Assembly (NCBI GenBank): GCA_947589035.1
Contig: CANPYZ010000006.1
Coordinates: forward strand, 1 to 64,000
Reading direction: 5' to 3'
Source of the DNA: an uncultured Clostridia bacterium
Lineage (GTDB): Bacteria; Bacillota; Clostridia; Oscillospirales; Ruminococcaceae
DNA: 64,000 nt
In this document: positions 275 through 2,314 of the stretch, piece after piece
Position numbering within the stretch: position 1 is the stretch's first letter
How the letters are laid out: every line of letters begins with the position of its first letter
Position numbers and translations under genes: made by a program
The notes under the pieces: generated by a model
The model's input: only the letters and a program-made list of their open reading frames with translations
Told to the model about the DNA's origin: nothing
The model's database searches: none

Positions 275-583
275 ATGATGAAGATAATACTAAAAAAAGC
301 CGGATTACTGGCATTAGGATTATTACAGGGACTTTTTGGCAGTTACTTTGCTATATTAGGATGGGCATTTGCTTTTCCTGAATCTTCCCCCGGAAGTAAA
401 GACTATGAAGAAGATTTATTTTTTGTTCCGTTAGGATTTGTCATGATATTTTCATGGATAATCATCATGATTGCCGCTATTGCATTGCTCCGCAAGAATA
501 AAGCGTATTTAGCATTATTTTTGATTTCTTGGTTAATTGGCTTGTCTGTTTTTTTCATTTTTACATTCATGATTCTGAAATAA
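275..583 (+). CDS. Small three-helix membrane protein, unknown function
   Basis: A 102-residue protein I do not recognise. Hydrophobic stretches near residues 8-33, 50-71 and 77-100 predict three membrane helices; a short acidic loop (PESSPGSKDYEEDL) joins the first two. An AAAAGGGG ribosome binding site precedes a double ATG. It is monocistronic: its own promoter lies 50 bases upstream and a hairpin terminator begins at the stop codon. Expression is supported by these signals; the role is unknown. Confidence 0.65.
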   Translation: MMKIILKKAGLLALGLLQGLFGSYFAILGWAFAFPESSPGSKDYEEDLFFVPLGFVMIFSWIIIMIAAIALLRKNKAYLALFLISWLIGLSVFFIFTFMILK

Positions 584-619
584 AAATCAGCACTAAGTTA
601 ATTTACTCCGTGCTGATTT
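584..619. terminator. Bidirectional terminator between convergent transcripts
   Basis: A 10-bp stem AAATCAGCAC / GTGCTGATTT is flanked by T-runs on both strands. It ends the small membrane gene on the plus strand and the tRNA-like transcript on the minus strand. The same ATCAGCAC stem recurs at 19245 and 20731. Confidence 0.8.
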
Positions 620-630
620 CTGAACAGTTA

Positions 631-702
631 ATCCCCTTGGCGGAGTTGGACCGCAGTCTCCAACTTAGCAGGCTGGCATCTTCACCGTTAGACGATAGGG
701 GA
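631..702 (-). tRNA. tRNA-like cloverleaf, anticodon GCU, short variable loop
   Basis: Read on the minus strand from 702, the sequence folds as a full cloverleaf. The acceptor is TCCCCTA paired with AAGGGGA (one A-A mismatch). The D-arm is GTCT/AGAT with GG in its loop, the anticodon stem is CCAGC/GTTGG with loop CTGCTAA, and the T-arm has four pairs. Conserved T8, A14, G18, G19, A21, T33, G53, T54, C56, A58 and C61 are present; position 55 is C instead of T. Anticodon GCU would read serine AGC/AGU codons, but serine tRNAs normally have a long variable arm and this one has four bases. No CCA is encoded. It has its own promoter and terminator. It may be a specialised tRNA, a tRNA-derived regulatory RNA or a decaying gene. 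Confidence 0.55.
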
Positions 703-770
703 CAGTCAGACGATAAAACCGTATCTCTTGTTATGGACAAGTGTTTTCTGTTTAAACTACCGACAATTTT

Positions 771-799
771 AGTTTAGCATATTTTTCTACATTTGTCAA
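771..799 (-). promoter_or_regulatory. Promoter of the tRNA-like transcript
   Basis: On the minus strand TTGACA (799-794) and TAAACT (776-771) are 17 bases apart, with TGC placed for an extended -10. Predicted transcription starts near 764 and would read a leader of about 60 bases, the cloverleaf, then the terminator at 619-584. Confidence 0.75.
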
Positions 800-1264: not shown

Positions 1265-2314
1265 ATGGGTTTTGACATTCAGACGAAAGTCACATCTTGT
1301 TACGACCACAGCAACATCAGCAAACCGCCGTTAATTCGTCCAGCGTACACTTCGGGAACGATTCAGGAAGCCGGACAAATGCTGAATCCGAATGGAACGC
1401 CTTATCAGCAACTACAAAATGCTTACCAGCAACCACAAAATATTTACCAACAGCCACAGAATAATTATCAACAACCGCAAAATATTTATCAACAGCCACA
1501 AAATATTTATCAGCAGCCGCAAAATATTTATCAGCAATCGCAAAACACCTACCAACAACCGCAAAACACTTACCAGCAGCCGCAGAACACTTACCAGCAA
1601 CCGCAAAACACCTACCAACAGCCGCAGAACACCTACCAACAGCCGCAGAACACTTACCAGCAACCACAAAACACTTACCAACAACCGCAAAATAATTATC
1701 AACAGCCAGTTTCCCAACCCACTCCGCCTCCTGCTCAATTTTCCATTCCCCCACTTCCGGCGGATAGCACTTTACTGAAAAAAGGGCAGAAATTTACCGT
1801 TGCGGACAAATCCGGAAATACTCCTTTCCAGTTGAAATTGCTGTTAGATTGGGACGTGGCAGATTCTCGCTGTGATTTAGATGCTTCTGCATTTTTGCTT
1901 ACGGAAAGAGACATCGTTCCGGCAGAAGAATGGTTCGTTTTCTACGGTCAGCCAAAAAGCCCTGACCAAAGTGTCCGCTATTCCGGCAATTCCGGAAAAG
2001 GCGCACAAATGGAAATTCAACTTTCAGCAGTTAGTCCGCAAATTCAGAAAATTGCCCTTGCTGTGACAATTTATGAAGCTATGGAGCAAAATTTAAATTT
2101 TGGCATGGTGCGGAGCATTTCCGCAAGATTAGTTGACGACCGTCAACACGAACTCGCAAGATTGGATTTAACGGAACTTTCCTCAGCGGTAACGGCTTTA
2201 GTTGTCGGGGAATTGTACCGCTACAAAGGCGCATGGAAATTTAATGCTGTCGGTTCAGGCGTGAAACGGGATTTATCCGGTTTTTGCGCTATGTACGGCA
2301 TTGAAGCCGGATAA
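1265..2314 (+). CDS. TerD-family stress protein with Tyr-Gln-Gln heptad repeats
   Basis: A 349-residue cytoplasmic protein with no signal peptide. Residues about 47-150 are heptapeptide repeats of the type YQQPQNT. Residues about 170-349 form a TerD/calcium-binding-stress domain, shown by LLLDWDV and DLDASAFLLT, which correspond to the Asp-rich metal-binding motifs of TerD proteins. Family members bind calcium and are linked to tellurite, phage and envelope stress; the role here is inferred. An AGGGGTG ribosome binding site precedes ATG. It is the first gene of a five-gene run with an AIM24 protein, a GH25 lysozyme, a beta-helix protein and MnmM. The repeat tract may act as a flexible assembly region and could vary in length. 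Confidence 0.85.
   Translation: MGFDIQTKVTSCYDHSNISKPPLIRPAYTSGTIQEAGQMLNPNGTPYQQLQNAYQQPQNIYQQPQNNYQQPQNIYQQPQNIYQQPQNIYQQSQNTYQQPQNTYQQPQNTYQQPQNTYQQPQNTYQQPQNTYQQPQNTYQQPQNNYQQPVSQPTPPPAQFSIPPLPADSTLLKKGQKFTVADKSGNTPFQLKLLLDWDVADSRCDLDASAFLLTERDIVPAEEWFVFYGQPKSPDQSVRYSGNSGKGAQMEIQLSAVSPQIQKIALAVTIYEAMEQNLNFGMVRSISARLVDDRQHELARLDLTELSSAVTALVVGELYRYKGAWKFNAVGSGVKRDLSGFCAMYGIEAG
1403..1711 (+). repeat. In-frame 21-bp tandem repeat coding YQQPQN(T/I/N)
   Basis: Fourteen full 21-bp units (1403-1696) and one partial unit encode heptapeptides beginning YQQ. The seventh position is Ile early in the array and Thr later. Synonymous differences between units show the array is not newly expanded. Confidence 0.95.

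Follow-up and report, generated by a model that had tools for sequence, protein, structure and literature searches.

A double-cloverleaf RNA family in gut bacteria with a conserved mini-cloverleaf leader and a tRNA-like body

Introduction

To our knowledge, only a few scattered cases of tRNA mimics with non-translational roles have come to light. The tRNA-Other of Bacillus cereus, a pseudo-tRNA, is a non-translational tRNA-like element inside a longer regulatory RNA that extends it at both its 5' and 3' ends (PMC3399842). Three tRNA-Gly isoacceptors of Staphylococcus aureus, in which G18G19 is replaced, bind EF-Tu weakly and are argued to be kept out of translation (PMC4052509). Lastly, the Y RNA YrlA carries a tRNA-like domain and is encoded beside rsr in Salmonella (PMC7790460).

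The locus reported here resembles each of these systems in part. Similar to tRNA-Other, it sets a tRNA-like element, probably outside translation, in a larger RNA; however, tRNA-Other has a Trp anticodon, is found in some Bacilli, and is not reported to have a cloverleaf leader or arrays (PMC3399842), as far as a comparison by description only can tell. Some members of the family, though not the copy at this locus, share with the non-proteinogenic tRNA-Gly of Staphylococcus the loss of D-loop G18G19 from otherwise cloverleaf tRNAs, but the Staphylococcus tRNA-Gly serves one amino acid with a normal Gly identity and has no leader cloverleaf, and in our genomes FemAB is not linked to the leader. 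The likeness to YrlA and Ro60/Rsr lies in a non-coding RNA with a tRNA-like domain and in a TROVE protein of the clade that carries arrays; unlike the rsr-adjacent YrlA, our RNA does not lie by the TROVE gene, and its body is a complete cloverleaf with an anticodon. Bacterial and phage tRNA arrays also comprise consecutive tRNA genes with mixed anticodons, whereas here every unit has its own cloverleaf leader, solitary units occur, and GCU units lack a serine arm. Canonical tRNA-Ser(GCU) has the same anticodon and A37, but possesses the long variable arm that the family's GCU units lack, and is encoded by a separate gene. The tandem architecture is not described for tRNA-Other, the non-proteinogenic tRNA-Gly or Y RNAs in the papers cited, and a search of an open-access literature subset found no paper on a family of leader plus tRNA. 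The RNA family, which is conserved in gut bacteria, is apparently undescribed.

Results

A promoter, two cloverleaves and a terminator on the minus strand

The window, that is, the whole 64,000-nt stretch of DNA analyzed, belongs to an uncultured Clostridia bacterium of the Ruminococcaceae (hereafter, the source genome). A first-pass annotation had assigned to positions 584–799 of the minus strand a strong promoter, a leader of about 60 bases, a cloverleaf and a terminator, and all four are present (Table 1). The leader, however, is a conserved cloverleaf instead of a featureless 5' extension, and is the most diagnostic part of the element, which that annotation had overlooked. We took the terminator straight from the sequence letters; an automatic scan misses this hairpin because its loop limit is 8 nt. 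The hairpin may double as the terminator of a plus-strand ORF that ends at 583.

Table 1. Features of the double-cloverleaf locus, in window positions.
Feature	Position	Strand	Details or basis
Sigma-70 promoter	771..799	-	TTGACA (799-794), 17-nt spacer with extended TG, TAAACT (776-771), 10/12
Predicted transcription start (+/-1)	764	-	First base of leader acceptor stem, inferred from -10 spacing
Leader mini-cloverleaf	705..764	-	R1/R2 covariance models, compensatory pairs
Leader P1 (acceptor-like)	764-760/709-705	-	5 bp
Leader UA (= U8 A9)	759-758	-	
Leader D-like arm	757-754/746-743	-	GUUU/AAAC, A14 at 753
Leader P2 (anticodon-like arm)	741-737/731-727	-	Loop CCAUA
Leader AGAU	726-723	-	
Leader P3 (T-stem-like)	722-718/714-710	-	UUU loop
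UG spacer, leader cloverleaf to tRNA-like body	703..704	-	Arm parse
tRNA-like body, nt 1-73	631..702	-	Rfam RF00005 match, arm parse, covariation among GCU orthologues
Anticodon GCU	667..669	-	In loop CUGCUAA (671-665), arm parse
C at tRNA position 55	649	-	T in both paralogues
T655.C639 (pair 49.65)	655, 639	-	Private T-arm change of window copy
Terminator hairpin	578..619	-	Perfect 10-bp stem 619-610/593-584, 16-nt loop, tail TTATTT

The covariance search proposed in that annotation was run, and the body (702..631, minus strand) scored 41.8 bits against the Rfam tRNA model RF00005 (gathering threshold 29, E = 8.7e-7), a match at tRNA level; ARAGORN, run on the window, did not call this cloverleaf. 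The arm parse confirmed the anticodon GCU, a four-base variable loop (AGAC), the T55C change (T54 C55 C56 A57 A58) and two stem mismatches, A7.A66 and T49.C65, and there is no encoded CCA. Only T49.C65 and C55 are oddities of the window copy; A7.A66 is common to all three copies in the source genome. The earlier view that this is not an ordinary tRNA-Ser holds, given that the long arm is missing and that the genome has a separate, real long-arm tRNA-Ser(GCU) together with a full canonical tRNA set. By contrast, the likeness of the 5' part to tRNA-Glu proved generic: the genome's own tRNA-Glu genes are, by eye, not notably closer.

We also noted two features elsewhere in the source genome. Window positions 1265–2314 encode a protein in which a long YQQPQN-type repeat tract precedes a domain that resembles, by eye, TerD-like stress proteins. 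Separately, a second, unusual tRNA-Cys(GCA) (L060:3584-3656, C24:12583-12652; a low tRNA score of 47.9 bits) without a leader stands besides the normal one and is possibly a specialized tRNA.

The leader is a mini-cloverleaf of tRNA layout

The leader is a conserved mini-cloverleaf whose tRNA layout is strongly backed by covariation. Its elements come in tRNA order: P1, UA, the D-like arm, a nearly invariant A14, one base and the anticodon-like arm, followed in the 3' half by four bases, a T-stem-like P3 that lacks a T-loop, and a flush return to P1. The signature UAGUUU(A) is invariant in 15 aligned leaders. In a three-helix model of these 15 leaders, 89.7% of cells were paired and 11 of 15 pairs showed compensatory change, while none of 500 shuffles reached the observed pairing or covariation score. 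A four-helix model with GUUU/AAAC added, on 71 leaders, had 92.5% of cells paired and compensatory change in 16 of 19 pairs, again with no shuffle as high (0/500). The fourth helix is supported less strongly, as it hardly varies: U-A became C-G once, and G-C became G-U 18 times.

Genuine tRNAs turned up as false matches of the leader model: phage tRNA-Trp and tRNA-Arg among the best viral matches, on contigs picked by pattern, and chromosomal tRNA-Arg at the class level. The tRNA layout of the leader is therefore independently confirmed. Against Rfam 15, leaders had no match either in the window (E ≤ 1) or in the G024 array (E ≤ 5). A known Rfam RNA (riboswitch, ribozyme, T-box or Y RNA) was rejected as the identity of the leader, as no model matched even at relaxed thresholds. 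That the leader might be a cis-acting ribozyme or a sensor for its own tRNA we consider scarcely credible.

TTGAC(A/T) and a TATAAT-like -10 element stand ahead of 25 of 26 first units, and the -10 lies 6–7 nt from P1, also in 25 of 26; this constant distance predicts that transcription starts at the first base of the leader. Leader and body are separated by 0–3 nt in parsed units, mostly by 1–2 nt.

Distribution and arrays

A search of related genomes, likewise proposed in the first-pass annotation, showed that the element recurs within the genus, in other genera and in a single genome outside the family. The leader covariance model detected leaders in 16 of the 38 genus genomes, among them 8 of the 12 best assemblies. 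A genome has at most nine leaders, and some genomes carry arrays that reach nine leader+tRNA units. Strong matches were also present in other genera of the same family (G165, G345, G416 and G433; weaker in G288) and, from another family of the order, in G677. Named relatives found by pattern were mostly Ruminococcus and Oscillospiraceae metagenome assemblies. The G023 assembly may be contaminated, because its copy hardly differs from the one in G345, a genome of another genus.

The description of the element as stand-alone is true of the source genome but not of the family. The arrays of G017 and G024 comprise six and eight tRNA-like genes, respectively, with the same leader before each, and their anticodons include GCU, CUC, CCA, GUC, CGC, GCC and ACG. 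Neighboring genes were not conserved past local synteny (a divergent SDR gene near the unit in G017 and G012; trpB beside it in G009 and G002), and no conserved biosynthetic neighbor was found.

A class-level sample yielded no convincing additional carrier. Three matches in one genus were rejected as normal tRNA-Arg (one of the three checked); the fourth, a 32-bit match in G1086, was also set aside (ARAGORN finds no tRNA there). Separately, a match in G331 (L098, 32–33 bits) was rejected, as promoter and downstream tRNA are both absent. In viral and plasmid collections, the patterns used retrieved only ordinary tRNAs or chance matches and no leader+tRNA units, and the sole match in a phage and plasmid BLAST was an Erwinia phage tRNA-Trp. 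The CCA unit of the G024 array (L024:3250-3313) is 83% identical over 64 nt to this tRNA-Trp of Erwinia jumbo phages, a hint either of phage ancestry for some array bodies or of convergence.

Two individual units are unusual. One beside trpB in G002 (L076:1501-1640, C12) has an intact promoter and leader, and a degenerate anticodon loop and T-loop. In a solitary unit of G416 (L204, C16, past position 1565), the T-arm region is enlarged by several near-identical repeats (AACGCATTACTGCGGTGCC).

The tRNA-like body keeps GCU without a serine arm

SerRS recognizes tRNA-Ser via its long arm. The variable loop is 4–6 nt in all GCU-type units, with no SerRS-type long arm, hence recognition by SerRS through that arm is not expected. 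Nevertheless, all 15 GCU-type units, which come from two families, share C32, GCU and A37 without exception, and compensatory changes occur in every one of the five anticodon-stem pairs and in three pairs each of the D-stem and the T-stem. As the origin of the whole family, neutral decay of a tRNA array would fit damaged units such as the G002 anticodon loop and the internal T-arm repeats of G416b; however, it is contradicted by the compensatory changes in leader and body and by the invariant GCU loop across genera, and we regard it as extremely improbable.

Other tRNA hallmarks are kept unevenly. G416 and G677 have C33 in place of U33 in their GCU units. Of 14 solitary or short-array units, 8 have no D-loop G18G19; solitary members often lack G18G19, T55 or U33, and UGC T-loops are seen among family units. 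Of the 50 array units whose loops have 7 nt, 18 do without U33, and C33 occurs in CGC, UGC and many CUC units. D-loop GG and TTC are both kept in 47 of 56 array units, and many array units have G18G19, TTC and U33 and score 50–67 bits as tRNAs. In 70 parsed units, 96–99% of stem cells were paired, a value that leans upward because the parser maximizes pairing. Encoded CCA was present in 3 of 70 units versus 23 of 45 canonical genes, and was rejected as a class marker since it does not separate the classes cleanly.

The units might instead be supplementary translating tRNAs, with the mini-cloverleaf as a signal for processing, in which RNase P and 3' trimming would set ordinary tRNAs free. The high pairing of array units, their frequent GG and TTC and the strong promoters are in keeping with this, as is the discriminator-like overhang that cleavage at tRNA nt 1 would leave on the leader. 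Against it, in no genome does the GCU unit carry a serine arm, C33 recurs in the CGC, UGC and many CUC units, the elbow is lost in solitary units, and the source genome, with its complete canonical set, would have no need of the units. The acceptor stem UGCGGAC is shared by seven different anticodons. Several aminoacyl-tRNA synthetases read anticodons, so that charging could still occur even though a single acceptor goes with many anticodons. Overall, we judge supplementary translating tRNAs to be unlikely as an account of the family; a mixed population in which some units decode is nonetheless conceivable, since many array units look sound.

The window copy among its paralogues

We searched 41 genomes with a 201-nt stretch of the locus. 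Two further copies were found in the source genome, C27:1878-2048 and C12:15447-15617, which are 91% and 86% identical, respectively, to the window copy over promoter, leader and body, and both carry the same promoter and leader; full-length but diverged matches were found in G017 and G024. The leader model scored 58–63 bits on all three source-genome copies. The element is thus beyond chance, because promoter, leader and body recur at two other sites and the leader model matches all three.

None of the three copies has the complete G18G19/T55 C56 elbow: the window copy has C55, C27 has AACGCUGA and C12 has AAUGUGA; the D-loop GG is absent from C27 and C12 and kept in the window copy. The suggestion of a recent pseudogene under a surviving promoter, rejected for the family, is possible for the window copy, although we consider it somewhat unlikely that this copy is a decaying pseudogene. 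C55 and T49.C65 are private to it, its predicted fold does not stand out from shuffles (z = -0.24, versus -2.81 for the C27 paralogue), and its tRNA score is the lowest among 50 matches in the genome. Nevertheless, its promoter is intact, its terminator is present, its two private leader stem changes (C to U) turn G-C into G.U and keep the pairing, and single structural defects are also found in other copies and genomes. The window copy may be a weakened member of a functional family.

A proposed role outside translation

The double-cloverleaf structure of the family is near certain. On balance, we think that the locus is probably a member of a family of ~140-nt double-cloverleaf tRNA mimics that act mainly outside translation, a role suggested by the missing serine arm, the losses of elbow and U33, and the redundancy with the canonical set. 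Of the options raised in the first-pass annotation, a tRNA mimic or moonlighting tRNA is favored, given the homologues in relatives, the compensatory cloverleaf and the retention of GCU without a serine arm.

In the proposed mechanism, the RNA would be highly transcribed from the first base of its leader, with a stripped tRNA shape as the 5' domain and a tRNA-like body with the conserved GCU as the 3' domain. The leader helix, 1–2 nt from the tRNA 5' end, might control or delay maturation by RNase P, or might stay attached. The body would serve mainly as a mimic with a non-translational role, its anticodon arm being read by a protein to which it is presented; the putative reader could be a synthetase, an enzyme that modifies or cleaves tRNA, or an RNA-binding protein. 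Arrays in relatives would be expansions of the unit with diversified anticodon arms. More tentatively, the functional molecule could be the intact dimer, in which a loop-stripped first cloverleaf, retained ahead of a non-decoding tRNA, controls the maturation, charging or protein binding of the second; this would constitute a new class of bacterial RNA.

A lineage-wide family with a sharp signature (the UAGUUUA mini-cloverleaf), conserved anticodons that seemingly do not serve decoding, and expansion into arrays offers a covariance model and many homologues for study. It also matters for annotation: gene finders list such units as tRNA-Ser, -Glu, -Ala or -Gly, which would distort both the number of tRNA genes counted and any codon analysis for this group.

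Candidate protein partners

We considered two hand-picked candidate partners, FemAB and TROVE/Ro60. By analogy with the tRNA-Gly of Staphylococcus, the RNAs could be amino acid donors to a non-ribosomal pathway that modifies the cell wall, lipids or peptides. The shared elbow change, with GG loss and UGC T-loops in our units, would be consistent with such a role (PMC4052509). However, FemAB (PF02388, the only transferase type searched) was absent from the source genome and all array genomes tested, and was present in leader-positive G433 as well as in leader-negative G020, G115 and G164, hence it does not follow the leader; no conserved biosynthetic neighbor was found either, and we consider amino acid donation quite improbable.

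Alternatively, the RNAs could act together with the TROVE/Ro60-like protein that the array clade encodes, in the manner of Y RNAs such as YrlA, which carries a tRNA-like domain (PMC7790460). A TROVE protein of ~550 aa was present in 8 of 16 leader-positive versus 0 of 22 leader-negative genomes of the genus (hypergeometric ~3e-4 on the assumption of independent genomes, which does not hold here), and G043 encodes a Ro60-type protein with a vWA domain. The source genome has a divergent TROVE protein (29.9 bits, versus a cut-off of 23 bits), but so does leader-negative G041; the protein is absent from leader carriers outside the genus, and no leader RNA was found in the fetched flanks of TROVE genes. 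Furthermore, the carriers may form one clade, in which case ancestry alone could give the pattern. Because we chose the candidate families ourselves, the association with TROVE is a lead, not a result, and such a partnership seems to us of low probability.

Lastly, about 1.2 kb upstream of the gene for the Ro60-type TROVE protein with the vWA domain in G043 (C31), we noted an ORF (L325:32-505) built from recurring RITPAHAGKS / HPRSCGEK motifs, as though a CRISPR repeat array had been translated.
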